A DNA stretch of 51,348 nt, from positions 1-51,348 of IMG/VR virus record IMGVR_UViG_3300032289_001747; one strand, written 5' to 3'. This DNA is from a virus. Positions 5,401 through 20,600 of the stretch are shown here, in pieces. Position 1 is the first letter of the stretch. Each line of letters opens with the position of its first letter. Below the pieces are notes generated by a model. The model had not been told where the DNA came from, searched no databases, and saw nothing but the letters and a program-made list of their open reading frames with translations. The translations under genes were made by a program, and so were the position numbers.

Positions 5401-6457
5401 TTTTTTCGTAGTCTTCCCAAAGGTTTCTGATGTTATCAACAAGAATAGAAAAGTCGTGATTGATAACGATAGCTTCTACTTCACTTCTCAATTGTTCCGC
5501 AGCAATGGCATCTTCTTGTTTGGTACTCTTTTCCAGTTTACGTATTTTTGCAAACTGGTCTTTAAGGAAGTTGTCGATGTTTTTGACCTTTACCTTTTCC
5601 GTAAGCAACAGTGCTTGGGTTACACCGGATCCTTTCTCAAACGGTGAAGCCAACTTGGTTATCTTTTTCTTGGTCTTGTAAGTTCGAGTAACTTTGTCGT
5701 ACGTTGAATCAATAAGGATAGGTAGTACAATAGCTCTCCCCGCAATTACGTCGGTAACACCATAAGCAGCTTTTACATCCGCCGCAAGAATACCAAGTTG
5801 AATTTCGTACTCCTTGTACTTCTTGGTAAGACGCTCTGTATTTATGAAAGCTCCTGATGCGTCAAAGTCTTTGGCAGAAACAATTTGAAACTTGAAGTCA
5901 TAGACCATTGCTGTTTTATCGGAGAACACAACAATCACGTCAATGGTAGAAGCTCTGGACTTTTTGGGGTTTATGATAATCTGTTCCGAAAAAATCTTGA
6001 AGTCTTTGGTCGGATCAATTTCCTTTTGTCTTTTGGCAGCATACGCTTTTATTGAATCCACTGCATCTCTAATCTGATTCAATACTGTTTGGTCAATCTC
6101 CCACTCTCCAATATGTGTTCCAACTGGTTCACCTTTTATTATTTTCTCAAAGACTTTGTGACCGGCGGTCCCGGCTTCTGCAAATATGGGATCGCTTTTG
6201 TACTCTTTCTTTTCTTTGTTTTTATTTAGAATCTTATCCCGGTCTTTTGTTGCCGTTGTCGAGAACTCTTGTTTTCCGGACAATCTTCCTTCAGCGTAAT
6301 ACACGTGATCCTCCTCACGCAACTTTACGTTTTCGGATGTATGCTTAAACCTTTTTTCAATATCCTCATAGGTATCTTCTGGTCGTATCTCATACGCCAT
6401 TTCCCTATTCTGAATAAGGTTTATTAGTTCGTCAATGTTTGGTACTGTACAAGCCAT
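2405..6457 (-). CDS. Giant virion protein with N-terminal PD-(D/E)XK nuclease-like domain and C-terminal membrane segment
   Basis: This 1350-aa protein ends the minus-strand virion operon. Residues about 90-225 look like a RecB/Cas4-type PD-(D/E)XK fold: GTAGH (H100), a strand with TIDVIVV (D173), MVYDFK (D187, K189) and a following helix with YEIQLG (Q220). The order H, D, D-x-K, QL matches that superfamily. The large middle is helical and charged, without recognised domains. Near residues 1214-1235 is a hydrophobic stretch (IFGLIAFLLMLSAAM) followed by an acidic run, consistent with one membrane segment. It starts 3 nt after the 829-aa gene and is probably co-packaged with the RNA polymerase block. 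The nuclease could act on host DNA, or it could be a degenerate structural fold. A role in virion cargo is inferred from position. Confidence 0.8.
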   Translation of the reverse strand: MACTVPNIDELINLIQNREMAYEIRPEDTYEDIEKRFKHTSENVKLREEDHVYYAEGRLSGKQEFSTTATKDRDKILNKNKEKKEYKSDPIFAEAGTAGHKVFEKIIKGEPVGTHIGEWEIDQTVLNQIRDAVDSIKAYAAKRQKEIDPTKDFKIFSEQIIINPKKSRASTIDVIVVFSDKTAMVYDFKFQIVSAKDFDASGAFINTERLTKKYKEYEIQLGILAADVKAAYGVTDVIAGRAIVLPILIDSTYDKVTRTYKTKKKITKLASPFEKGSGVTQALLLTEKVKVKNIDNFLKDQFAKIRKLEKSTKQEDAIAAEQLRSEVEAIVINHDFSILVDNIRNLWEDYEKRKDEPKFLANGKSNYKYYTDKEAVELVGKIRSAADMFSRMGEYYSRMSKSSGKGKDLADKAKEVIGPFTQEITYMMTEMDAMVVNRYVAGLLGDNVLEDGELKMQREEGSLNQMFFGLSDQKNYFMRALNEIKLENERQVNEELEKFIKDWSDVNNSVNKWINTNGRAAFIKKLVNPKTKNLIGQLDKKFFDERSARKKMEDVDWFKKYYEPYITEEEFIARKNRFRETLKLQGLDKKKIDARMDQYDKNFNLWSTNPERAINAWTNDRAVKMKESLFSDKNWITKEYADIIDTPLGEFYNFYRKSMGNFLGMVDAPERANFIPWIRQGLVEGFLNSEGMSPKLLADAVLNSIMARNDSGYLSMDEGSKLNKEVPVYFMSPVLDDNGNPIPGEEKSMDLMHSLLIFGKMAMTHKAVKQRVGIANMLVEAYGNSRLYETTARGSLKRVGSEFATREVTAKEKEIAEALRDYHFYGIDMRSKDAIYKIGDREISRTEILRTLKSRWTMITLSFGLKQALGGYVAAKLNAWIDGSKGVHYSTDQFNNAVKLYYKEPTKMSALGLFMDIYSESVIERKLKAVGMDPADMGKFRQKDFIRTFKDHTYAQWWRNFNIDRMAMGVWRYEAESRDNALIGAVSQNFGVNKNNEFVRFKKQDFEKDGITLKQELKDQGFKQMYEIFEYDEKDGPRFNINATEQEKHHLYIRFREALKKIRNGISGEVSDEDKSYVNMTVWGMLIMQYRSWMPNILKERFGELSYDSRTMAAEQGRYRVAFKHLFQDTSKKDIPFTNLVLTGMARFGRMMAETTYIPSAVRSLAGKEKQFTPDVERLELEYKVWKEENPDLAEQISLEDYAEMRISQLGATIVEMRMIFGLIAFLLMLSAAMKADDDEEDEYALRFGYSIMRKAYSELSFTVNPLEYTRLTKNAIPLADAITRVYKAAVNTFDELRDTVYEEDSSYDRAEWFHYSKGLVPFGANVGRLLEWSEEDEKYLQEGIFENRF

Positions 6458-6460
6458 AAG

Positions 6461-8950
6461 TTAAATTCCACATTGTATGGGAAAGTCCCCGTTGTTTAAA
6501 AGTGGTTCAGCGTATCTCTTTTCTTCGTCCGTAAGATATTCCAAAGAAGGTATAGCATCCACCATACGTCCTTCTTTGTTCTCTACTTCGGTTAACTGGT
6601 ATTCGTTGTTGGCCGCTACAAAAGTAGCTCTTTCATCTTTAAGCTGCTGTTTGTATTTCTCAAGTAGGTCGTAGGACAACTGTACATTGAACTCCTTTTT
6701 ACTTTCGGTGATTTTCATAAACTCTGAAATCCTGTCACCATAAACAGCGTAGTAAGAATCAAGGATGCCCCTGACAACATCAAAGTCTTTCTTGACCTTG
6801 ATGGTCGTTACATCATCTTCTGCCGACACAGTTCCGTATTCTTCGATTTCAGACACCATTTCGTTCAAGGTAGCACTTGATATAGGTGGAGTGTAAATAA
6901 CGCGGCTATCGGCCAATGAGAGATACTCAGACACATTCTGCTTTAGCACCCTCTTGTCCAGTACACCGGCTGCTACCAGTTCAGCCATGTTGTCCACAAA
7001 CGTCTTCTTGTCATCCAAGCGTTGGTTAACCCACTTGGTCATTTCCGGGTCTGTCATGTAGCCTCTGATGAACGAGAACAGGTCTTTGAAGTGATCCTTC
7101 ATTTCAACCTTGTCACCATACTGCTTACGAAGACGATCCAGTTTACCATTTAGGTAGCTGTACTGTACCGTGTTGGATTGAGCGTCAAGACTCTTGCTAC
7201 CCATCTTGTCAAACAGACCTACCAATGTTTGGTTGAGGATGTCTTTGGTAGCTTGGTCATTCTGCTCTTGTTCAACAACAGGAACCTCTACTTTACCGGT
7301 TTCCGGGTTGTAAGCTATCATTCCGGCTGTATCCACTTGTACCAGTTCAACCGGATTCTGTTTGAGCAATGGCTCCATCCTCTTAGCTAAAAGAGCATTG
7401 GATGCATTGTTGTCCAACTGGGTTTGTTGTACAAATGCTTCTGTAGTCGGTGGTAACGGTTGTTTCTTTTTAATCGGCTGTTCTTTCTTGTAATAGCTAT
7501 CTGGATCCGTACGGGTAAGAAAGCTATCTGTAAGTATTCTAAGAATGTCTTGGTCGGAGAACAGGTTAAGCATCCACTTGGTAAAACGTTTCCACCAAGA
7601 GTAAGCTTCACCCTTTTGTTTTACCACTTGTTCACCAATAGCTTGTACCAATGCTTCTTCACTACCAAAACGACGGATACCCTCTTTTACCAAATCGGTA
7701 TTCCTAAACCAAGAAATATAGTGGTGGGCATACTCGTGAGGTAAGGTATCCTGCTTTTGGTTTATTGCATCAACCAACACGGTCATAGCTTTTATGTTAG
7801 CTTGACCTATGATTTTACCATAAGAAGTTTGAAATCTTTGATTCTGAAAATAATCAAGTAAGTATTCTAAATCTTCTTCCGTGGTTGCATCATTTACCAT
7901 TACCTTTTTCATTACAACCTCTCCTGCAAAATATTGAGGAATTTCTGTAACGAACCTAAACCCAGATTTTTCTAATTGTTTTGATTGATAATCAGGAACC
8001 GCTATTACAATAGGCATTTTTTCTTTTGCTACATTTTCAATCAACTCTTTTCCCATCCTCAAACTCGAAGGAGCAAAGTGGCTAACCACAAAAATATCGT
8101 TTATTGGAAAACCTACCAAAGCTGAATTGTCATCAGAAAAAGGACTGTAAACAATTCCTCTTCCAGAAAGAACGTGGGCTTTAAGATTACCTCTGTAAGT
8201 CGAAGTTCTGCTTATTGCGTTACTGTAGTTTTCAAATATTTCTTCTGCAAGTTTTTCTTTTTCTTCATCTTCTGCATACTGTTCATATTCATCTGTTTCT
8301 TTATTATACTTTGTAAAGACTTCTGTTTGCAAAGACTTTAACTTGTTTAACCTTCCAAAAGAAAGTCTTTTTTCTTCAGGGCTTAAACTTTCTTGAAATT
8401 CATTTTCTTCTTCTGCTTCGTTATAGTATTCAGTAAGCGCACGATAAGCAGCTTTATTTTTTTCTCTTTGGTTAAAAACACCAAGCGTGTTTTCCCAAAC
8501 AAGGTTAGCAGTAATGTTCAGCTTTATCTCCGGGTACTTTTCTTGAAGGATACGCTGAATCTTAGCAGCCAACTCTTTGTCAAACGGAACTACTGCTTCC
8601 TGTACACCCGGTCTAACCGCAGCACCTTGTGCAACAGCAACATCCTTGTTGTACACCAGTTTCTGGAATCCCGGTTCCGTCATAAACTCTGTCTCCGGCA
8701 ATCCGCTTAGGTGTGCAGCACCATAAAGTGCTTTTGCAATATCAACCGCCGATCGTCCGGCTATCTTGTTTTGAGATACCAGGTTATCAACGTACTCCTT
8801 ATTGGCTGTATAAGAAGCCTTACGGTTGGTTATGTTTTTTTCGAGTTCACCGACAATTTGAGGGTAAAGCTCGGAAGCTTCACCCTCGTTGTTCACTGCC
8901 GTATGCTCTCCTTTGTTGTTCTTACCAAATTGAATATCGCAAAAAGACAT
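6461..8950 (-). CDS. Virion protein with HExxH zincin motif and AT-rich inserted domain
   Basis: This is an 829-aa protein. Its N-terminus (MSFCDIQFG...) has the opening style of other giant crAss/jumbo-phage virion proteins. Residues 405-409 are HEYAH, a zinc-metalloprotease HExxH, followed 23 residues later by SEEALVQAIGE, where E432 is a candidate third ligand. Residues about 150-390 are encoded by markedly AT-richer DNA than the flanks. Part of this stretch (SSLRMGKELIENV, later KQLEKSGFRFV and YFAGEVVMKKV) resembles the C-terminal half of GNAT acetyltransferases, which is a weak call. The C-terminal 400 residues are helical and unrecognised. It abuts the ferritin-like gene upstream (shared base at 8950) and the nuclease-domain gene downstream, so it is probably one of the ejected cargo proteins. 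Confidence 0.8.
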   Translation of the reverse strand: MSFCDIQFGKNNKGEHTAVNNEGEASELYPQIVGELEKNITNRKASYTANKEYVDNLVSQNKIAGRSAVDIAKALYGAAHLSGLPETEFMTEPGFQKLVYNKDVAVAQGAAVRPGVQEAVVPFDKELAAKIQRILQEKYPEIKLNITANLVWENTLGVFNQREKNKAAYRALTEYYNEAEEENEFQESLSPEEKRLSFGRLNKLKSLQTEVFTKYNKETDEYEQYAEDEEKEKLAEEIFENYSNAISRTSTYRGNLKAHVLSGRGIVYSPFSDDNSALVGFPINDIFVVSHFAPSSLRMGKELIENVAKEKMPIVIAVPDYQSKQLEKSGFRFVTEIPQYFAGEVVMKKVMVNDATTEEDLEYLLDYFQNQRFQTSYGKIIGQANIKAMTVLVDAINQKQDTLPHEYAHHYISWFRNTDLVKEGIRRFGSEEALVQAIGEQVVKQKGEAYSWWKRFTKWMLNLFSDQDILRILTDSFLTRTDPDSYYKKEQPIKKKQPLPPTTEAFVQQTQLDNNASNALLAKRMEPLLKQNPVELVQVDTAGMIAYNPETGKVEVPVVEQEQNDQATKDILNQTLVGLFDKMGSKSLDAQSNTVQYSYLNGKLDRLRKQYGDKVEMKDHFKDLFSFIRGYMTDPEMTKWVNQRLDDKKTFVDNMAELVAAGVLDKRVLKQNVSEYLSLADSRVIYTPPISSATLNEMVSEIEEYGTVSAEDDVTTIKVKKDFDVVRGILDSYYAVYGDRISEFMKITESKKEFNVQLSYDLLEKYKQQLKDERATFVAANNEYQLTEVENKEGRMVDAIPSLEYLTDEEKRYAEPLLNNGDFPIQCGI

Positions 8951-9372
8951 TACTTCAGGAATTTGAGTTTGTAGATAGTACTGGACATCAGCTCACACAC
9001 ATCATCGATAATCTGTTGCAGCGCACCTTTGCTGAAACGCATCTTCATCATCTCTACTTCATCGCACTTCTTTTGCAGGTAGCTCAAGAAGTCAATGTTG
9101 TTCTGCACCGTTATGGTAGTATCGTACTCTACGATTTTACCATAGAAACCCTGGTAGCTTTCTACAAACCGATCCAGTAAATCAGGAAGACCATCGTAGA
9201 GTTCGTTCATTGCCTTGTGAGCGGCGTAAGAACCACTCTGGAGGTGTGAGATATGGGCTTGGGTAGTAACTTCGAACAGAAGGGAAGCCAGTTCACCACA
9301 AGGGCATCCTACCGAGGAGCCGGGAAGGGTGGGGAGTCCGCCGTGGGACATAATGCGTCTTGCGTCAATCAT
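8950..9372 (-). CDS. Ferritin/Dps-like four-helix protein
   Basis: This is a 140-aa protein. I chose ATG at 9372 rather than a GTG at 9402, because the ATG follows the RNA polymerase stop and the residues before it are not conserved-looking. The sequence QAHISHLQSGSYAAHKAM (H40, H43, H52), then NELYDGLPDLLDRFVESYQG (E57, D60, D67, E71), follows the helix pattern of small phage proteins I associate with the Dps/ferritin-like fold (Pfam DUF5856-type). Ferritin-like proteins oxidise or store iron and protect DNA, but many phage members may be structural. It sits between the RNA polymerase and the zincin protein with almost no spacing, so it should be made together with them. A metal-site function is inference. 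Confidence 0.7.
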   Translation of the reverse strand: MIDARRIMSHGGLPTLPGSSVGCPCGELASLLFEVTTQAHISHLQSGSYAAHKAMNELYDGLPDLLDRFVESYQGFYGKIVEYDTTITVQNNIDFLSYLQKKCDEVEMMKMRFSKGALQQIIDDVCELMSSTIYKLKFLK

Positions 9373-9395
9373 GGTTGTATTGGTTTTGGTTGTAA

Positions 9396-12300
9396 TTAAC
9401 ACGTTTTCGAAGATTCAACTTTTCCTTTTGCAAGTTTTACAGTATTTTTTCCAGGACCTTTTGCCCAATCCAAATAATTCTCTTCGGAAGGAACCACGTT
9501 ACTTTTTTTAGATTCCTTCATGTACTGACCATATATACTTCTTGTTTCTCTTTCAATAGCGTCATACACTTTATACAATCTTTTTCTTATACCTTCTTTT
9601 CTTTTTTTAATTTCTTCCTTTGACTTACCGCTTTCGCCACCGGCTTCTTCTTCGTTCATTGCGTCTTCTTTATAGATACGGTCTTTCCATTCAGTAAATA
9701 AATCTGTTTCAGATTTTACTATTTTAGCCAAAATGGTTTTTGTATCTTTAAGCACATCCCCATAATAAGGAACGGTTTCAAGTGAATTAATTATCGTAGC
9801 ACCAATTTTGTAGTTTTCGTAAAGATCTTTTTCGTAAACCTCCGGAGAAACTCTTTGCAAAGATACACCACCTTGAGCAGTTTTAGCGGTGGGTTGAGAG
9901 GGTGCTGTGGGTTCGGCAGCGGTACGAGGAAGTTCTGGATTGGGTCCCCAGTAATTGTATCCTTTGGATGTTTGACCAGAAGGAGTTCCAAGCTCTTCTT
10001 GAACAGCACCTTCTCCAGATTTATTGTAAGGTCGATTGGCATCGGTAGTAGAATCCATTATTACCGTACCTCCGGCTTCAAGAACATATCTTGCATTTTC
10101 ATATGTTTCTTCTATTGCTTCTTCGGTAACTTTACTTCCACCGCTTACACTTACAAAGGCAATAGTGTTTTCATCTACCTCACCGTCGTAGTTTACAGGG
10201 ATACCTTGTCTTCTTGCATCTTGTTCATACTGCAAGGTGCTCGAACCTTTAACCCCATAACCAATAAACCGGTTTGCTAAATTAGCTTTACCTTGATCCT
10301 TTTTGACATAATCTTTTACGGCTTCGCTTCTTGCAGTTAAGGTAAATCCTTTTTTAGGAGTTGTTGTAGTAGCACTTGGTTCTGTAGTGGATGTGGCTTC
10401 TTCTCGAACTGTAGTTTCTTTAAAGGAACCAGATGTTCTTTCTACGGTCGCTTTTATATCCCTCTTCATAATATACATCTGCATATTCTTAATTTGGATT
10501 CCTTGCTTTTCAATAGGAGCATTGTAAATCTTGTATCCAAACCCAGAAAGAGCTTCCATCCTTGTTTCAACTGTCCCTGAAGGAGTCAAGAAGTATTCTA
10601 CAACATCCAGTTTTTTTGTTTCTCTATTGAAAATACTAAAGTAAACCGGCAGCCCTTCAGAATTTTCAAGAGCTTCACTCAATTGAATTTCTGCTTCCTC
10701 GCCCAAATCTTCATACTCATCAGAAACCAGTCGCTTTTTCAACAACCAAGGATTTGCAGCAAAGAATCTTCTTCTGAAATCCAACAACACCCTTTGCTTT
10801 AAAACAGGGTCTAAGTTATTAAACCAAGTTATTTGCTCTTGCGCCAATGAAAACTTAGTGTAAAGCTTCTTGTTTGGATCATCATTGCTTTCAAAAATAT
10901 CGTCTTTGACTGGAAGAATAGAGTCCAAAGACAAAATGTTGTTTGAAAAACCCGAGCTGTAAATACTATAAGAAAGCATTTTGCTAAAGAGTTCCGGATT
11001 TTCAAAAGCAATATCCTTTATTTCTTCAATGTACTCGTTCAGCATAAATAGATTTTCGCCCAAACTCGATCGTCTTATCGCATCTATAGGGTTGCCGTTA
11101 AACGTATTGGCATTAAGCAAGGGAATCATTGTCTTAAGAACTCGGAAGTTTTTATCGTCACCGTGTTTTTTGAGGTTTTGTATAACCTTTGCAAAAGACC
11201 TTTTACCTCCGCCTCCAAAAAGAATACTTTTTCCAAGACCGGGTCTTTCAAAAAAGTCTTTATTGTTTTGTACCAAGTAAGTAATAAAGTCTTCGCTTAC
11301 AACTTTACGAAACCGGTCTATCTTTTCCTTGTCAATATATTTATCAACAGTCTTTTTAAGATTCATGTTTCCAATAAGATCAATCTCTTCGGTAAAGTAA
11401 AATTTCTTGTACATGTCATCATACTGTCTGTACACATCAAAATAAGTTCTCATTGCATTTTGGCTTTCAATGAGATTCTCCAAATCTACCACCAACTTGT
11501 TTTTAAGAGCTTTTTCTATTTTCATTGCTCTCTCTATCCACTCCTCTCTGCGTATTGGCTTAAAGGTATCCAAGCTAACCGCCGACATAAAAGTTCTGTG
11601 TTCAGATGTTTGCCGGGATATTTGAGAAAACAAACTCAACATGTAGGGTTGAGCCTTTGGATTAAACTCCCTAAGCGTTTTCAAAAATACCTTTTGGTTG
11701 TCGATTCCGGGAAAATCAGGATACCTGTATGTAAACCTTTTTCCTTTTCCTTTTTGCTCTTTGACCAACTGATTCTCAAACTTGTCCAAAGCTTTGAGGA
11801 AAGGAAGCGATTCTTTGGAATCATACTTTTGGGACAGTCTGAATTTTTCCTTTCTGTCAAGACCATGAACCCTGTACGGCACAGACTCATAAATGGCCTT
11901 CTGCTTTATATATTCCCGGATAATAGGTTGTGCAAAGAAATAAAGAATATCCATGTGAGGCACACCTCTTTGCAAAAGGTAAGTAGCCATATTCAAAGTA
12001 TCGCCAACAAGACCAAGTACTTTAGCATAAGGGTCTTTAACGGCGTCCACTTGCGATGTAAGAAGCCCGGACAACAGTTCCGATATAAACTCGTTCTCTT
12101 GATTTAGGATGGCTGAAAACGAAGAATTTTTATCCGCAGGTAGAAACGGAAGGGTTCTATTGGCAATCAAATTGCCTTCATTGTCAACCACCGTCAATTG
12201 AATTTGATAACCGTACAGTTGATTGACCGTGTTGTTTGTTATTGACACAGCCACTTGACCCACACCGCCTTTAGAGGCAATGTTTTCACGAGTCTTGATG

Positions 12301-15300
12301 ACGTTGGTTACGGCAGTATAAGCATCAAAGATAGTAAGCTTCTTGTTTGGGTCAAGACTTTCATAAAAGGCCTCGTCTTCTTTTGTATTTGCATTTAACT
12401 TTCCATACTTGGAAATCTCTGCCAATTTACTTTTTGCTTCAATTCTCCAATGAGTATCATCTGTTGGCTTCATTAAGTTCATGAAATTTACTTCCAGCGT
12501 CATAATGTCCAACTCTGTTTCCAACAGTTCGTTTTCTTCAGCTTTGCGAAACAGACTACGCTTACTCTCTAAGTCCATCAAATCACTTCTCAGCTTTTGA
12601 AAAGGAACTCTTTTTTCAAGATCTTCACGTTCATCCTCTCCAAGATTGTCAATTTGCTCAGCGTACTTTTCAATTACCTGTTTTGCTTTTTCAATACCAG
12701 ACAAACCGCTTTGTAAAAATTCGGTATCTCCCATAAAGCTCAAAAACTCATCAGTGGACTCAGACAAACTTCTTTCTATGATTTCGTTGGTGACATACGA
12801 AAACTTCATGTTCTTACCTCTTCCAGACAACATGCCGTGTCCCAGGTACATGTTCAGTTTGTCAATATCAAAGTCCGAACCTACCTTAGTAGCAATAATC
12901 GGCGGTACAACCACCATTGCCGTATTGGTAGGAACAAAGAACCTCTTAACCCGGAATACGTCATTTGAAGACAACTGCTGATTGGGAATACGAAGACCTT
13001 TGAGGAACAACATCTTTTCGTCAAACTTCTCAAAGTTGTTTTCTTCAATATCCTTATTTACCATCTCTATCAACTTTATTACATCTCTTGTTCCATAAAG
13101 CTTCATAAAGTCGTTCAACCATTTAGTCGGAAATGGCATACCTATATCTGCGTAGGATTTATTGTCCTCGTACATCTGATAGTCCTCAGCAACATAAATT
13201 CTACCTTCCGTTTCTCCCTTACTGTTTTTGACCTCTTTATAGACCGTAGGTGTTTTAGTGTCATTTTTCTCAAAGAAGATAGAGCTTACCTGTGGTACAG
13301 CATTACCGTTACGCTTTTGATTTGTAACTTCGTTACGCACTAAGGAGTACATTACCGGTTCAATCTTGAACCTGTTTGGAAGCAACTCAATGGCCTTGTG
13401 TTCTGCTTTTGCAAACAAGTCCATTACGTCCAACACGTTCGATGCTGCACCTCTATCGTTCAAAGACCTTTTAAGTTCATCAACAAGTTTTTTGATGTCG
13501 CTGTACTCTTTGGTCTCTCTATCAAAACCCGTTTGCTCTTCCAAGAAAGATATTGATTCAGCAATTCGTTTAGCCATAATATCTGTGTACTTGGAAACCT
13601 TTCTGTACGCCTCCGAGATTTCTTTACGTTGAGCTTCGTTCAAGGACGACCATCGTTGACGATCACTATACTTTACATCAATAGGGATTCCTTCGTTGAA
13701 CAGATTGGAAATAGTGAGCTTATAGGACTGTGTAGAAGATATAACCTTTCCCTTTTCCTTGTTGGCAATAGCAACTTGGTGTTTAAAGTACTTGGTTTCC
13801 ATAAACTGGATGTGAGAATTCAAATCCTCCGCAACATTGTCATTGGCAACAGCCTTCTTGTTCTTGACTGAATAAGCCATCTTCATTCCCTTTACCAAAT
13901 TCCTATTGCCCAAGGCCTTGCTATCATCCACCGGATTGTATCTTCCGGTTATGTTGTTCTTTACAGTCTTTATCCGCTGACCCACTTTCCGAGCAGAACC
14001 AAAACCTTTGATGCCCACACCGTTTAACACAAGGTTGCGGTGGATGGACTCCAACTTGGTTCCCATTATCTGCGATGGCAACAATGGATAGAAACTTGTC
14101 TTGGCTACTCCTTGTGCAGAATATCCATTCTTTGTTTGGTTTGTCCAATATGGCCCGGCGTATTGACCTTTCATGGTTTCAGCCAATCCCAAAAACTCGT
14201 TGAAGTAAACGTATGCATCACCTTCGGGTACAGTGTAAGCAGAATAGTCACCGTTGAATATTCTTACTTCCATTTCAAACAACCGCTGATGAGCTTCAGA
14301 CCACTGACCCCATTGTATCTTGGTACGCCGCCATTGGAACAGGTTGATGTAAGACTGACCATCCCCCCAGTTGGTTTTACCGTAAGCACTTTTTAGTTTT
14401 TCCGCGTGTTTTTCTGAAAAAGAATTAGCATCTTCTGTACTCATGCCAAGGTTTATTAGCATTTTGTACATTGAGTTCTTAGACCTCTTCTTGTAGTTGT
14501 TCAGCTGTCTTTCTGGAACATAATAATCTTCTTCGGCAAATGCAGCAGTAGCAATTACATCCGGGTTCTTAGCATTTTCTATACTGTTGTAAGAAATGTA
14601 TTTTCCCTTTTTGGATTTACCGGTTGGAGGAATGTATATTTTGTTCTCTTCCCGATTTTCGGTCTGAATAATAAAATTGCTTACCGTTTCTCCATGAGCA
14701 GAGAGTTCACCAGTCGAAGACCAAACACTGAATCGCTTAAAGCTATCCGGACCGTTCTTGTACAACTTCGGATCACCTGTAAGAATAAAAGACTGCTCAA
14801 TATTTCCAACTAAACTGTTGACCGAATATAGTCGCGATATTACTTCGACAGTTCTGTCATATAATCTATCGGCTTCATTTTTATCTTTTGGTGATACTTT
14901 AAGTGCATCAGCAACTTTTGATTTATAGTGATTCCAAACAGAAAGGTCTATACCTACAGGTACAGCTCTTGTTCCTTGCCCTACTTTTTCATAAACACCG
15001 GATTCACTAATATAAGCATGTTCTTTTCTTGAATGTTCCACGAACCCTTTGTACAACTTATCCAACTCTATCGCAAAGACGGGAGAGTTTTTGAGAACAG
15101 GAGTTAAGTTACCAGCAGAGTCTTTTTTCAAAAGTTTGTTGTAATCTACAAACTGTCCAAAGAAAGTATCTTCATTTTTAACAGAACTTAAATACTGAAC
15201 ATCTTTGGGCAAATTGGCCAAACTAATTGCTTCTTCGTATAGGTAGTTAGCAAAAACATCTTTGAAACTTTGCTCAAAAGGAGCATCTTTTACATCTGTA

Positions 15301-17636
15301 ATCGCCAAATAAGTCTTATTTTGCTCAGTGGGTATATCAACCTGAACAGAATACAACACGCTTCTGTCGGAGTGTTTTACCGTTTGATAGTGCGTTACTT
15401 TTGGGTTTAGCAACTGACTTATGTAAACCGAAAAAAGACTTGTTTCTTCTACCTCGGACATTTCGGTTGCAATAGAACCGTCTTCGGTTTTAACACCCTG
15501 GTTGACGTTTATTCTTATTCTTCCGTTAGTCGCCAGTATTTTCTTTAACCAAAAACTATTTGTCCCTCCCCAAGACTTTAAGTGAGGCATCCTATTAAGA
15601 AATTCTGGAAGCATATCAACGGCCTTTACCTTCTCCTTGTGCAGTTGTTCAACGGTATGATTTATCTCGTTGACGGTTTGAGTCATGTAGTTATTCAGCG
15701 CAATACCATAAACCCTTTCACCGGCAGCGGTAATCATAGAGCTTTCCGTAACCATACCGGTTGACAAAATCAACTCTGCTATTTTTTTACCAGCGGTTTC
15801 AAGATTGAAAGTGCTAAAGGTAGCGTTCGAAAAAGCATCTACCAGTTTTGGCAACCTTGTTTCTTTTTCCGAGTTAATTGACTTTATTAAAACGGTAGTA
15901 ATTTTCTGAAGTTCCGAGTACATTTCTTCCTTTTGCTCTTTGTTCAAAAGGTCGTAGTAGTAATTAAGGTTGTACAAATCCAAGAACTTTTTTTCACCGG
16001 CTTTTTGTTTGTCCAATGAAATCATCGCCTTGAAAAAGTTTTCTACTCCTCCGTAGTTTTGAATGCTCTCAACAAACAATGAAGACATTTCGGCAGCGGC
16101 CCTTTGCAACCTTGAATACCTGGATGCATCAATGATTTTAATCTTCGACTTGTCATACTCTGTAACCAACATGTTGTATGTGGTGTTGGTGTACTGAACT
16201 ATAAACTGAAGACGGTTGTACATCAAGTCGTCAATCTCAAGTTGTTCAGCATCCAATTTTTTGCCACCAAGAACGTCAATAAGCTTTTTTATACCCTCTC
16301 CGTAGATAGCGTTTCTAGATAGCTCTTCCAATTTATCAAAAACCGCTTCATCAGTAGCCAGTGTACCGGCAAGGTTTTCATTCAAGAAATTGGACAGGTC
16401 TACCCAGTTGTAGTTTCGGGTCATTCCGTATCTCGATGTATCACCTTTGTTCTCAATGGCAGACAAAATGATCCTAACTGCCGTTTTAATTCGAGAGTTG
16501 GGATCTATTTCAAAAGAAGCCTTTTCCGCATAAGCTCCTGTAAAGTTGCCTTCTTCGGGAGTAGAGTCTGGATTATCGTCGTCTTTTTTTCTGGTTGTAT
16601 CTTCGTCCTTTTCTTTAACTTCATTGTTTTGTACATACTTTAATTGTTTACTCAACAGTTCATTGCTTTGTTTGTACTTAGCGTAAATCTTGCTTTTCCT
16701 CAAATCCTTTTGAGTCAAGTCTTCTTGAACAGCCAAGTAAAACCAAATCTTATCTTGTTCTACTTCGTTAAGAGAATCCCAGTTGTCATTGTAGTAATTG
16801 TTCTCCAATAGTTTCTGTATCCCAAGCTGATCTACTACTTGAGCAAGTGCTTTATCAATAAGCACACTGGAATCAATGGTCTTGTTACCATCTTTTGACA
16901 AAAGGTCTGATAGACTACCTCCGTTCAAAGCATTGTCAATAACTATCCGGTGCATCATTTCTACAACTGGAGCAAAATCCTCATACAGTAAAGTTACGTC
17001 TTCATTATTATAGGAAAGAGTAATACTCTTTGACTTCTTAAAAGACTGAGTCGTAGTTCTTGATTTATACCCTCCCTTGTTCATCATATCGTAGATACGC
17101 TCAATCTCCGACGGTTTAGCTCCTGTAATATACTTGAGCATTTTGACCAGTTGATCAAACAGCTTCTGGAGGAACGTCCTGGGCTTAGGTTCACCCAAGA
17201 CAAAGTTTGCAAACTCATCCGCAAAGTACTCCTCAATCAACACGTCCTCGTTGTTACCGTACTCTGCTCGGTACGGTTCAATTAACTGTTTCCAGTTCTT
17301 GTTGGTCTTAAGTTCATTGACAGCGGCCTCTCTCTCTTGTGCCGTTAAAGCCCCCTGCCATACCCTGTGGAAGGCTTCATGGTACACGGTGGAGGTAGTA
17401 GCCATGTCGGACAAAAGAATCGTCCCATCGTCATTTAATTGACCTATAGCCCTATCTTCTATTAGCCCTTTGACAAACCCTATCTGAGAGTCCGTCATCC
17501 CGGTTATGCGCCGTAGTTCTTCTTTAGCAAACGACTGATCAACCACCTTAGCGGATGCTATCTTACCATCCTTGATGAGTTTGAGCATTTCTCCACGAGA
17601 GTATTCGTTGCCGTTATAAACGTATCTACAAGACAT
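9396..17636 (-). CDS. Virion-packaged DNA-dependent RNA polymerase (crAss-type), multidomain
   Basis: This is a 2746-aa protein. Residues 1588-1592 are DFDID inside GSDFDIDKLNMYLG. This is the Mg-binding motif of the double-psi beta-barrel in crAss virion RNA polymerases, the counterpart of DFDGD in cellular beta-prime; about 50 residues earlier is RIPNQQLSS, like the R-x-P segment before it. The polymerase would be injected with the genome and transcribe early genes. N-terminal residues 1-335 form a separate module with HEAFH (86-90) and EEYFADEF (135-142), a zincin-like protease signature, joined by an acidic/Lys linker (about 335-365). After a Thr-rich linker (about 2400-2425), residues about 2450-2565 look like a Rossmann/SLOG-type nucleotide-binding domain (FIGYG, IAFVSVSGGS, AGGTVIMD). 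The length exceeds phi14:2 gp66 because of these additions. It overlaps the upstream gene by one base (TAATG). Confidence 0.92.
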   Translation of the reverse strand: MSCRYVYNGNEYSRGEMLKLIKDGKIASAKVVDQSFAKEELRRITGMTDSQIGFVKGLIEDRAIGQLNDDGTILLSDMATTSTVYHEAFHRVWQGALTAQEREAAVNELKTNKNWKQLIEPYRAEYGNNEDVLIEEYFADEFANFVLGEPKPRTFLQKLFDQLVKMLKYITGAKPSEIERIYDMMNKGGYKSRTTTQSFKKSKSITLSYNNEDVTLLYEDFAPVVEMMHRIVIDNALNGGSLSDLLSKDGNKTIDSSVLIDKALAQVVDQLGIQKLLENNYYNDNWDSLNEVEQDKIWFYLAVQEDLTQKDLRKSKIYAKYKQSNELLSKQLKYVQNNEVKEKDEDTTRKKDDDNPDSTPEEGNFTGAYAEKASFEIDPNSRIKTAVRIILSAIENKGDTSRYGMTRNYNWVDLSNFLNENLAGTLATDEAVFDKLEELSRNAIYGEGIKKLIDVLGGKKLDAEQLEIDDLMYNRLQFIVQYTNTTYNMLVTEYDKSKIKIIDASRYSRLQRAAAEMSSLFVESIQNYGGVENFFKAMISLDKQKAGEKKFLDLYNLNYYYDLLNKEQKEEMYSELQKITTVLIKSINSEKETRLPKLVDAFSNATFSTFNLETAGKKIAELILSTGMVTESSMITAAGERVYGIALNNYMTQTVNEINHTVEQLHKEKVKAVDMLPEFLNRMPHLKSWGGTNSFWLKKILATNGRIRINVNQGVKTEDGSIATEMSEVEETSLFSVYISQLLNPKVTHYQTVKHSDRSVLYSVQVDIPTEQNKTYLAITDVKDAPFEQSFKDVFANYLYEEAISLANLPKDVQYLSSVKNEDTFFGQFVDYNKLLKKDSAGNLTPVLKNSPVFAIELDKLYKGFVEHSRKEHAYISESGVYEKVGQGTRAVPVGIDLSVWNHYKSKVADALKVSPKDKNEADRLYDRTVEVISRLYSVNSLVGNIEQSFILTGDPKLYKNGPDSFKRFSVWSSTGELSAHGETVSNFIIQTENREENKIYIPPTGKSKKGKYISYNSIENAKNPDVIATAAFAEEDYYVPERQLNNYKKRSKNSMYKMLINLGMSTEDANSFSEKHAEKLKSAYGKTNWGDGQSYINLFQWRRTKIQWGQWSEAHQRLFEMEVRIFNGDYSAYTVPEGDAYVYFNEFLGLAETMKGQYAGPYWTNQTKNGYSAQGVAKTSFYPLLPSQIMGTKLESIHRNLVLNGVGIKGFGSARKVGQRIKTVKNNITGRYNPVDDSKALGNRNLVKGMKMAYSVKNKKAVANDNVAEDLNSHIQFMETKYFKHQVAIANKEKGKVISSTQSYKLTISNLFNEGIPIDVKYSDRQRWSSLNEAQRKEISEAYRKVSKYTDIMAKRIAESISFLEEQTGFDRETKEYSDIKKLVDELKRSLNDRGAASNVLDVMDLFAKAEHKAIELLPNRFKIEPVMYSLVRNEVTNQKRNGNAVPQVSSIFFEKNDTKTPTVYKEVKNSKGETEGRIYVAEDYQMYEDNKSYADIGMPFPTKWLNDFMKLYGTRDVIKLIEMVNKDIEENNFEKFDEKMLFLKGLRIPNQQLSSNDVFRVKRFFVPTNTAMVVVPPIIATKVGSDFDIDKLNMYLGHGMLSGRGKNMKFSYVTNEIIERSLSESTDEFLSFMGDTEFLQSGLSGIEKAKQVIEKYAEQIDNLGEDEREDLEKRVPFQKLRSDLMDLESKRSLFRKAEENELLETELDIMTLEVNFMNLMKPTDDTHWRIEAKSKLAEISKYGKLNANTKEDEAFYESLDPNKKLTIFDAYTAVTNVIKTRENIASKGGVGQVAVSITNNTVNQLYGYQIQLTVVDNEGNLIANRTLPFLPADKNSSFSAILNQENEFISELLSGLLTSQVDAVKDPYAKVLGLVGDTLNMATYLLQRGVPHMDILYFFAQPIIREYIKQKAIYESVPYRVHGLDRKEKFRLSQKYDSKESLPFLKALDKFENQLVKEQKGKGKRFTYRYPDFPGIDNQKVFLKTLREFNPKAQPYMLSLFSQISRQTSEHRTFMSAVSLDTFKPIRREEWIERAMKIEKALKNKLVVDLENLIESQNAMRTYFDVYRQYDDMYKKFYFTEEIDLIGNMNLKKTVDKYIDKEKIDRFRKVVSEDFITYLVQNNKDFFERPGLGKSILFGGGGKRSFAKVIQNLKKHGDDKNFRVLKTMIPLLNANTFNGNPIDAIRRSSLGENLFMLNEYIEEIKDIAFENPELFSKMLSYSIYSSGFSNNILSLDSILPVKDDIFESNDDPNKKLYTKFSLAQEQITWFNNLDPVLKQRVLLDFRRRFFAANPWLLKKRLVSDEYEDLGEEAEIQLSEALENSEGLPVYFSIFNRETKKLDVVEYFLTPSGTVETRMEALSGFGYKIYNAPIEKQGIQIKNMQMYIMKRDIKATVERTSGSFKETTVREEATSTTEPSATTTTPKKGFTLTARSEAVKDYVKKDQGKANLANRFIGYGVKGSSTLQYEQDARRQGIPVNYDGEVDENTIAFVSVSGGSKVTEEAIEETYENARYVLEAGGTVIMDSTTDANRPYNKSGEGAVQEELGTPSGQTSKGYNYWGPNPELPRTAAEPTAPSQPTAKTAQGGVSLQRVSPEVYEKDLYENYKIGATIINSLETVPYYGDVLKDTKTILAKIVKSETDLFTEWKDRIYKEDAMNEEEAGGESGKSKEEIKKRKEGIRKRLYKVYDAIERETRSIYGQYMKESKKSNVVPSEENYLDWAKGPGKNTVKLAKGKVESSKTC

Positions 17637-20600
17637 TAGAAACAGTTTTTGGTTACTTGATTAGTTTCTTCAAGGCTATCGAGAACTCTTTTTGCCTCTT
17701 GCAAATCTAAGACTTTTTGAGAAGGGCCTCCTTCATCATCTTTAGGTTTTTCCGAAGATTCATCAGAAGGTTGTTCTGGTGTAGGTTCAACCGGTTGTTG
17801 AGGTTTACCAGGAGCTCTTCTTGGAGTAGTCCTTTTAACACTAATGCGATCTTCATCCAAATCCTCTGATTCAGCAACAGTGTTCTCAGCAAAGTTTTTT
17901 GTCGCATTGTCAACATCAACATCGTTTTCTCCAATGTCATCTGCAATCCTATCAACAACATCTTCATCATATTTTTGAGCTTCGCCTACTTTCTTTCTCG
18001 TTCTTGGTCTTTTAGTTTTTTGAGGTTCAGTTTCATCAACATCTTGAAAGTTTTCATCCGCAGTCTCTTCCTCTGTTTCTTCTTCAACAGTTTCTTTTGC
18101 AGCTTTTGGTTTTCCTCTTTTTACATACGAATCCAAAAGTTGCTTGGCGGTATCGTCCTGCGTTTTTTGTCTTGTGTCAAGATCATCAAACAACCCTTTG
18201 GAAACCAACTCTTTTATAAAGTATGGATCGGAACGAAGATTGTCAAAGTTCTCATAGTCAAACGGAACAGAAGTATTTTCGTCAATAAGCAAATTTTCTC
18301 CATCGTGTAAGTAGAAACCAAACTTACCGTCTGAATCCAGATAGTAAGTTTTTTCGATGTACACTGGTTTGCCATCTTTAAATACTCTTTTTCCACTTGC
18401 ATCAACAGCTTGAGTTTTTGTAATAAACCGAATGTTTCTTAAAACTTCTCCAGGATCCATTTTAATACCAGATCTTTGATCTATTTCTGCGTACAGTTCT
18501 GAAATTACTTCTTGAATGCGACTCCTGTACTCTTCGTCACTAAGCCCTACACCTTGACCTTTTTTCTTATTGGTCTTTTTACCAGTACTCTTTTTTGTTT
18601 CTGAAGTTGACCTGGTTGCTCTTTCGTCTCCTTGACTACTTTCGTCTTTATCCTTGATAGGATTACCAAAACTTTTTTTGTCAATAATTAAGTTGGATTG
18701 TACAAAAGGATACTCTGGATTTACTTTTGCCGTAAGTACATTGTCCAAAAGATACTCCGAGTAATTGTCAATGGTTTCAAGCTCAATTTTACCGTTGACC
18801 AGTTTTGGCATAACGGTTTGTTGGTCGAGAAGTCTTTTGTTTACATAAAAATACTTCTTTCTCAGATGTGTTTTAAAATCCTCAACTTCTTTCTTTTCCG
18901 CATCCGTTCTTTCTTCTTCTGGTTTACGAAATATATCAGCGTTGATTGTTTTGGGTTTACTTTCCCGTCCTTCTTTATAGTAAATCGTATCTCCTCTCTT
19001 AAAGAGTTCGAATACGTTACTTGACCTTTTACCAAAGTTTATAATTCTTCCCAACAAACTTATAATAGACTCATCACCTATTCTTTCTTGTTCTGTTGAA
19101 AGAAGTGCAATTACCGTATCTACTTCGTTCTCGGTTAAGGTTCGTTGATTTAGAATCAAAGGAGGAGCGTTCTGTGCAGTATAGTACACAGTACCTTTGT
19201 TCAAACGATAATTTCTTTTCCCAACCTTAACCTCCTCTTCGTCGGCAACCTTTAGATTTTTCGTGTACAACTCTAATGCGTCTTTAGAAGCACCTTCTCC
19301 ATAAAGGAAAGAAAATATCTCTTTTATCTTATGACCCTTTTTTCCTTTTGTTCTATTAAAATGCCGAGAACCTATACCTGCTATTTTTAAGACAACCCTT
19401 TTTTTATTGCTAATCTCACCTTTAAGACTATTCATGAACTGACGATACTCATAGGAAGCTTTTTCTAAATCCTCTCCTTTCAAACCAAGTTTTTTCTCAA
19501 TATCCTTTTCGGAGCGCATTGTAGTAAACACCAGGTTTTTACCACTTCGCATCAATGTCTTTCTACCACCTTTGTTTTTCTTTAAAACAAAAATGTAGAC
19601 TCCAGATTTTTTTTGTTCTTCTGTAATATCTATAAGCCGGGCTTTGTCATACGCAATGGATTCATCAATAGCCATTTTCATTTCTTTGTCCGCAGTATCA
19701 TACGTTACTGCAATATACAAATTTGAATTGATGGCACTACCAAAACCCTTTTTGTCCATCTTTGCCAAGGCGTTTGTAAAACCAAACCAAGCTTTTGCAT
19801 ACGGGTTTTGATTTCTTATCAAATTTCCTTCTGCGTCAAAACGGTCAACCGCCATTCCGTTTACGGTGTCAAACTCAACATCTCTACCGGTAAGCAAAAA
19901 TGGAGTGGTCGGCCTTGCAAATTGCGAACTAATAGTTTGATTCTTTGCTTGTTCGGAAACATCGTCGAGTGTAGCTTCCGGATCTGCATCCTTGTACATT
20001 TCATTCCTTACAATAAAAACCGCATTGTTTCTTAGTTCATCTAATTCTTGATTGGCACTCTTAATGCGTCCGAATATATTTGCCAAAGTGTCAACCTTGA
20101 TTTTCTTTATCTTATTTAAACTATCTTGAATTTCACCAATACTCTTGTTTGTTTCATTAAGTATTTGAGCGTAATATCCAGATTTACCTATCTTACGAAG
20201 TCTTTCATTGACAAACTCTCTTAGTCTATCTGCTTGTTCGGGGTTTCTATTTTCAATAGCTCTTAGCTCATCGATTCTTTGACCAAGATCCTTGATGTTT
20301 CTTTTTAAGCTTTCAATCGCATCGACAATTATGAAAGCCTCTATCTTTTTATCATTAAGCTGTTTTTCTATTTTAGCAAATTCATCATCTGTTTCGTTCA
20401 ACAACTTAAAGTACTGATTGTCCTCTTCAAAGAGTGTTGCATACGCAGTCGCACTTTTGATAGACTTGTCAACAAGCTCTTGAATAGTTTCTATTTTGCT
20501 GGTATCAAAGCCTTCTTGATCTAACTTTTCTTTGATAATCGCAAGCATCAAAGCTCTTTGATCTTCAGCTAACTGTTCTTCGGCTTCGTTCTCCAAATTA

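Follow-up and report, generated by a model that had tools for sequence, protein, structure and literature searches.

How phages pass proteins of 2000–5000 residues through the tail channel in the right order is an open question, and it is raised directly by a 51,348-nucleotide stretch of viral DNA (IMG/VR record IMGVR_UViG_3300032289_001747, positions 1 to 51,348; hereafter the window), which contains a gene encoding a protein of 2746 residues. A preliminary description had presented this protein as a virion RNA polymerase fused to a zincin-type protease and a possible nucleotide sensor, the protease being able to cut the polymerase free after ejection. The main result reported here, which that description had missed, is a code of terminal cysteines (Cys) in the giant cargo proteins; it is new and strong.

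Judged from its sequence, the 2746-residue protein is a crassvirus virion RNA polymerase, and the source of the window is a gut-type phage, a crassvirus. Residues 1073–1918 were aligned to gp66 of the Cellulophaga phage phi14:2 (E 4e-15) and to crAss001 gp50 (E about 7e-7), and this region was matched in 37 records overall, other crassviruses included; phi14:2 was itself one row in the profile by which PDB 6vr4 was named. The GSDFDID context of the DxDxD catalytic motif is conserved and common to crassvirus polymerases. Furthermore, by comparison of gene order with named crassviruses, the gene lies within the crassvirus giant-cargo block, after the tail-stabilisation and gp45-, gp46- and gp47-like genes. 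The motifs reported previously, HEAFH (residues 86–90), EEYFADEF (135–142, 45 residues past H90) and DFDID (1588–1592), were all located as claimed. Scans of Pfam and PHROGs with the whole polymerase gave no match, and a single-sequence scan of viral contigs returned no relative, the relatives being reached through alignments. The sole PDB matches of a single-sequence search were antibody light chains with weak scores, which were taken as chance.

In some relatives, the polymerase open reading frame (ORF) is split at or near the DFDID codons. In cr108_1 (L001/L013; gp054/gp053), gp054 ends in ...GSD and the next ORF has ...DIDKMY; the frame is likewise broken in cr131_1 (L017; gp50/gp49/gp48), L102 and L155, and in cr131_1 a gene of 242 amino acids lies inside the gap. 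These breaks in the catalytic motif look like an intron or an insertion.

In the giant cargo proteins, single Cys stand at the termini that face one another and the bodies are otherwise nearly free of Cys; the outer ends of the chain almost always lack the residue, and it is missing where genes are fused. In the window, this was observed for the upstream gp47-like protein (for which no database match was found), the polymerase, an extra cargo protein of 829 residues and the last, gp49-like cargo protein (Table 1). Other large genes of the window are richer in Cys, with 26 in a gene of 1552 amino acids as an example, and several smaller ones have few or none. A 150-residue ORF between the polymerase and the 829-residue gene (window 8950–9402, minus strand) has a match in phrog_858 (starvation-inducible transcriptional regulator). 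Its overlap with the polymerase end and its four Cys make it an unlikely cargo protein.

The single Cys of crAss001 gp47 lies at 2339 of 2341 residues; gp49 of the same phage also has one (at 5) and gp50 three (at 5, 1334 and 2404 of 2412). The masses of crAss001 gp47, gp50 and gp49 are given as 262.5, 276.9 and 154.5 kDa (PMC10172136). In phi14:2 the Cys were found at 1797 of 1797 in gp67, at 3 and at 2179 of 2180 in gp66, and at 3 in gp65. The N4 virion RNA polymerase (vRNAP; 3500 residues, N4 gp50, L018) and T7 gp15 and gp16 (L191) have zero Cys. As far as these sequences go, avoidance of Cys is a wider habit of injected giant proteins, and the end Cys are not.

The pattern was quantified in the best 80 of 282 loci fetched by the zincin and the best 80 of 456 fetched by the polymerase motif, in which 96 polymerase ORFs fell into 48 clusters with representatives at 60% core identity. 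ORF starts were set by rule, as the first ATG that did not reach far into the preceding ORF. Loci with reassigned stop codons were cut by code 11 and are mostly absent from the counts. The counting schemes are not independent: they share loci, and their end windows differ slightly (20, 25 or 30 residues). Across the 48 clusters, a Cys was present in the last 20 residues of every complete polymerase C-terminus (46/46) and in the first 10 residues of the next protein in 43 of 45 cases; the internal Cys rate (41/176718) gives a chance per end of 0.0046 (C-end) and 0.0023 (N-end). The two exceptions, both counted as discordant, were L145, with MPRHC where expected and a frame broken behind it, and L105, in which a candidate partner with an N-terminal Cys lies about 6.5 kb away. 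Among Cys-poor proteins, a Cys was found at 213 of 421 N-ends and 232 of 433 C-ends, against 0.7 and 1.5 expected. Their 229 non-redundant junctions (out of 324 pairs) had a Cys on both sides in 120 cases and on neither in 101, most of the latter lying between gp45/gp46-like proteins or upstream of a gp47-polymerase fusion. The Cys was missing at the start of the train in 35 of 36 cases and at its end in 34 of 36, ends beyond the locus being left uncounted. Additionally, the terminal Cys was the sole invariant column in 47 aligned polymerase C-terminal regions.

The same rule was followed when genes were fused or split. The C-terminal Cys of the upstream protein and the N-terminal Cys of the polymerase were compared in 37 rows (that of crAss001 entered by hand): both were present in 20, neither in 17, and no row was discordant. 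In L094, gp47, polymerase and gp49 form one protein of 4726 residues with no Cys (L092 has the same protein, cut by the locus end); L094 stands beside phi14:2 on the tree (support 83), and phi14:2 has three proteins with four Cys at two junctions. Where the polymerase is fused to gp49 (L029/L084), one internal Cys was found within the 5133 residues covered, and where an extra protein lies between polymerase and gp49 (the window, L099, L100, L117, L121, L181, L183 and L186), this protein has Cys at both ends. Where the ORF is interrupted inside the polymerase (cr108_1 gp054/gp053, L102, L155), the break is free of Cys. DNA signals at gene overlaps were also considered as the cause of the end Cys and were rejected: the crAss001 gp47 gene is on the opposite strand, and the positions of the Cys vary, from 3 to 6 at the start and from 0 to about 25 residues from the end.

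These observations point to a cargo organised as a head-to-tail train of the gp47-like protein, the polymerase, the 829-residue protein and the gp49-like protein, probably disulfide-coupled end to end. The facing terminal Cys would most likely be joined as disulfides into one threadable string, which would leave through the tail in order and come apart in the reducing cytoplasm. The first protein would draw the others through constrictions of under 50 angstrom, and a single string would fix both order and stoichiometry. We infer the disulfide bond between cargo neighbours from where their Cys stand. Passages of the crassvirus atlas (PMC10172136) state that passage needs partial unfolding and that order likely comes from packing and interactions between proteins; they also describe inter-subunit disulfides in the gp57 dimer, the tail hub and the rings of crAss001 virions, so oxidation of crassvirus particles does occur. 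Towards the complete model, in which end Cys form disulfides, other Cys are purged, the string is threaded in order and reduced in the host, fusion and disulfide are interchangeable, and effectors are placed ahead of the couplings, we lean with some caution.

Several points weigh against this coupling or against other parts of the reading of the polymerase. Eight of the 229 junctions were discordant. Fused and split forms require six changes on the tree, three of them on supported branches, and the supported independent pairs agree in 3/3 cases (p 0.25), too few for significance. The 5420-residue ORF of L058 has no end Cys and runs past the likely coupling Cys into the domain KDLKGYP.HAQGGVD. 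In crAss002 (Intestiviridae, a family new to the analysis), gp32 has a single Cys at 2019 of 2020 and gp33 is a polymerase fused to gp49 (L193:10843-23580), in which the annotated start puts a Cys at 35, translation from the in-frame ATG of codon 33 would begin with MSC, and the last Cys lies 75 residues before the end, the gp47 junction being the only one with Cys; crAss002 would fit the pattern only if the annotated start of gp33 were 32 codons too early, which is probably the case. Moreover, capsid assembly takes place in a reducing cytoplasm, and the hosts are in many cases anaerobes. Finally, gp65–gp67 of phi14:2 gave no match to the zincin profile, and fold comparison did not confirm the SLOG-like label of the domain near the polymerase C-terminus.

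It is improbable, in our judgement, that neighbouring cargo proteins instead lack a covalent bond between them, their facing end Cys sharing a metal or docking each end to the same portal or core protein. Pairs of Cys suit metal binding and the hosts are often anaerobic, but a single Cys from each end is little for a zinc site, and docking to a common partner leaves unexplained both the Cys-free ends of the train and the loss of both Cys on fusion. Chance or general avoidance, by which ejected proteins avoid Cys and the terminal ones are left over, can practically be discarded: the Cys-free N4 vRNAP and T7 gp15 and gp16 do make the depletion wider than crassviruses, but the terminal excess amounts to two orders of magnitude and tracks gene boundaries, so that for this excess the explanation is already refuted.

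In the N-terminal region of the polymerase, residues ~55–195 form a predicted gluzincin-like metal-binding domain that is conserved, on the evidence of motif, conservation, model and fold matches. A tblastn search with the HEAFH/E136 domain retrieved 57 phage records, of which almost every one was a crassvirus. Five columns (H86, E87, H90, E136 and F142) were invariant in a first alignment of 13 sequences, two rows of which carry Q entered at stop codons. Among 63 aligned relatives, 61 of them from a pattern search requiring HEA[FW]H, residues H86, E87, H90 and A139 were invariant and E135, E136 and F142 were at least 90% conserved. In 159 domains found by profile, many of them in loci that had been retrieved with the polymerase motif alone, H86 and E87 were present in 159/159, position 90 was H in 128 and E in 31 with nothing else, and position 136 was E in 157 and D in 2; the 93 non-redundant domains comprised 79 HE-H-E, 13 HE-E-E and one HE-H-D. 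The site varies between metal-binding residues only and looks to be under selection as such. No residue other than H or E occurs at position 90, and on this ground the reading of the HExxE relatives as dead enzymes was rejected. HExxE stands in place of HExxH in L101-L178, a possible change of metal or chemistry. In L099, the motif is HETFH.

An AlphaFold2 model of residues 1–240 (mean predicted local distance difference test score, pLDDT, 81) placed HExxH on a helix at 81–96 and E136 on a helix at 130–147, so that the elements follow the order of a gluzincin. With Foldseek alone, no significant fold match was obtained for this model, and the zincin profile gave weak matches only against PDB (best E 0.16). 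In a second-look structural alignment, the best rows were almost all zincin-fold proteins (Z 7.3 at most). The predicted fold resembles the IrrE/PprI minigluzincin fold (PDB 3dte and 8sln; Z 6.8–6.9, root-mean-square deviation 3.0–3.1 over 88–89 residues); no sequence match of IrrE/PprI to the domain was obtained by Pfam or PDB profile, and a Z under 8 is weak alone. A second HExxH, HEYAH, was noticed at residue 405 of the 829-residue cargo protein (window 6461–8950), whose stretch 381–482 has 45% identity to a faecal phage contig, and HEIMH, HEILH, HEMLH, HEIVH and HELLH occur in gp49-like proteins (L005 gp65; L011, L015, L016, L017).

The location of the zincin differed between loci. It lies near the C-end of gp47 in crAss001, a separate protein with its gene on the other strand, and at the C-end of the protein preceding the polymerase in Dulem virus 41; in these two and 12 other loci, it is on the upstream gp47-like polypeptide, at most 363 residues from the C-terminus. 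In the giant proteins of Suoliviridae, the zincin is mid-chain and DFDID follows about 1430–1620 residues on (1502 in the window). The gp47/polymerase break falls 147–363 residues after H86 in some loci and before it in others, by 81–86 residues (the window, L019, L020, L099), 198–248, 670 or 881–1065, or there is no break. These varied break points indicate that the zincin marks the gp47/polymerase hinge and that the gene boundary has moved across it. At this hinge, here on the polymerase side, the zincin would probably work as a peptidase after entry, and may trim the cargo string or act on a host target.

Two rival explanations of its role were weighed. That the zincin hits a host protein after injection or serves packaging, leaving the polymerase unprocessed, is a tentative option. 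The domain is retained on either side of the junction, IrrE/PprI and the antirestriction protein ArdC are among its fold neighbours, and in passages of Iyer et al. (2017, PMC5512222) the metallopeptidase (MPTase) region of N4 vRNAP is given as needed for encapsidation and host-targeting roles are discussed. Its fixed place at the hinge is, however, odd for a free effector, and no target is known.

An autoprotease that cuts near the hinge and releases the polymerase after ejection, with the Cys secondary, appears unlikely. Where found, the zincin is always near the hinge and its metal-site residues are conserved, and the same passages propose that polyvalent proteins are processed by their own domains of this kind and state that N4-like RNA polymerases (RNAPs) always carry one. 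Yet they also report that N4 vRNAP is packaged unprocessed. The zincin is kept on gp47 where the proteins are already separate (crAss001, Dulem virus 41 and the 12 loci), and no polymerase is there that needs to be cut off. Among the fused representatives in loci retrieved with the polymerase motif, 10 of 15 lacked HExxH, nearly all having HExxE, whereas 6/6 split ones with the domain had HExxH; if fused chains were those most in need of cleavage, the opposite would be expected, unless HExxE is active. The phi14:2 proteins, without a zincin profile match, also speak against release. Hence, the earlier proposal that the protease serves to free the polymerase was not supported and the release story is unproven; the linker at 335–365 was likewise left without support as a cleavage site.

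The analysis of the C-terminal region revealed a swappable domain slot just before the terminal Cys, in a stretch between polymerase core and Cys that is variable across relatives. In the window, the slot holds a small alpha/beta domain modelled with confidence (pLDDT 86). Structural alignment returned diverse general Rossmannoids (Z 5.0 or less) and no specific fold family, Foldseek alone gave no significant fold match, and no match to Pfam was found. The nucleotide-binding-like domain described at about 2450–2565 was thus recovered as a confident alpha/beta domain between Thr/Pro-rich linkers, with its fold family left unassigned; nucleotide binding is plausible from the model. SLOG membership was not established, no SLOG-named entry being among the 50 matches listed in the structural alignment. 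The proposed fusion of polymerase, protease and sensor consequently held as regards the zincin-type and C-terminal alpha/beta domains on the polymerase.

The slot domain of the window recurred in L159 and in 12 loci of a dedicated scan (two of them on the L159 and L027 contigs, one each), lying ahead of the terminal Cys in 12/12. A different sequence occupies the slot in L099, the closest relative (83% identical at the catalytic region), and in L019. Pfam names in the 47 slot regions were NADAR (2), cpYpsA SLOG (2), SF1-type helicase (1), AlkB-like oxygenase (1) and RNase H (1). Phage SLOG and NADAR domains have been proposed to counter NAD-derived immune signals, according to passages of a published survey (PMC9503650). 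The Rossmann-like slot domain would probably enter together with the polymerase, as an early module for counter-defence or host take-over. The protein of L020, like that of L058, continues past its likely coupling Cys into the KDLKGYP.HAQGGVD domain.

No report of the Cys pattern, or of a zincin in crassviruses, was found in the literature searched, a search that did not cover Drobysheva 2021, Yutin 2018, and Koonin and Yutin 2020. To the question of ordered passage, the end-Cys code offers an answer that is concrete and cheap to test, in viruses that are very abundant in the human gut; reduced and untreated crassvirus samples have already been run for mass spectrometry by the atlas group, as stated in part of that work (PMC10172136). 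From sequence alone, the code predicts the order of the cargo; it also allows gene starts to be corrected, as for crAss002 gp33, and marks a slot in which domains delivered with the first injected proteins can be sought.

Table 1. Cargo genes, domains, motifs and cysteines discussed in the text, with positions in the window
Feature	Position	Strand	Remarks
Virion RNA polymerase, 2746 aa (amino acids)	9396..17636	minus	Open frame over full length
Polymerase Cys3	17628-17630	minus	One of only two Cys in the protein
Polymerase Cys2746, last residue	9399-9401	minus	Other of only two Cys
Zincin (gluzincin-like) domain, predicted, residues ~55-195	17052..17474	minus	Motif, conservation, model
HEAFH, residues 86-90	17367-17381	minus	HExxH motif
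E136, third-ligand candidate	17229-17231	minus	Conservation, model
Charged, probably disordered linker, residues ~335-365	16542..16634	minus	Sequence
Polymerase region, residues 1073-1918	11883..14420	minus	Matches phi14:2 gp66 (catalytic RNAP, PDB 6vr4) and crAss001 gp50
DFDID, residues 1588-1592	12861-12875	minus	Catalytic motif
Slot domain, small alpha/beta (Rossmann-like), residues ~2438-2563	9948..10325	minus	Model, recurrence
Thr/Pro-rich linkers, residues ~2413-2429 and 2566-2589	10350-10400 and 9870-9941	minus	Sequence
Upstream cargo protein, gp47-like by position, 2113 aa	17636..23977	minus	Stop overlaps polymerase ATG
gp47-like Cys2112	17642-17644	minus	Single Cys
Extra cargo protein, 829 aa	6461..8950	minus	Cys only at 4 (8939-8941) and 827 (6470-6472)
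Last cargo protein, gp49-like, 1350 aa	2405..6457	minus	Residues 1053-1322 match cr108_1 gp052
gp49-like Cys3	6449-6451	minus	Single Cys
Cargo-position protein, 879 aa	23981..26620	minus	No Cys; outside coupled chain
Cargo-position protein, 1046 aa	26623..29763	minus	Two internal Cys (482, 492), none terminal

When compared with known systems, the polymerase of the window was like phi14:2 gp66 and crAss001 gp50 in its catalytic motif (DFDID/DFDVD), in region 1073–1918 and in the giant-protein cargo block, but the polymerase polypeptides of these two phages have no N-terminal zincin, and that of crAss001 is at the end of gp47. The gp47-zincin-polymerase giants of Suoliviridae (cr113_1 gp38, cr10_1 gp32, cr118_1 gp14 and others) have a zincin-DFDID spacing like that of the window. 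In these giants, gp47 is joined with the polymerase in a single polypeptide that lacks the junction Cys, whereas in the window the chain is broken 85 residues before HEAFH and a Cys is found on both sides.

Outside the crassviruses, N4 vRNAP is Cys-free, much as the bodies of the cargo proteins nearly are, but without terminal Cys. T7 gp14, gp15 and gp16 are also injected; gp15 and gp16 are Cys-free and gp14 has one Cys at position 2, and these ejection proteins have no facing terminal Cys pairs. The N4 RNAP is of the single-subunit, T7-like kind, unlike the crassvirus polymerase. N4-like RNAPs and polyvalent proteins are described, in passages of the work of Iyer et al. (PMC5512222), likewise as injected giants in which a polymerase is fused to zincin-type and variable enzymatic domains; the main text of that work does not mention crAss. 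Judged from sequence and models, several unrelated domains of this kind are present in the one polymerase polypeptide, which may thus be a polyvalent protein. The polymerase-zincin fusion of the window is an instance of this known theme of N4-like RNAPs with zincins.

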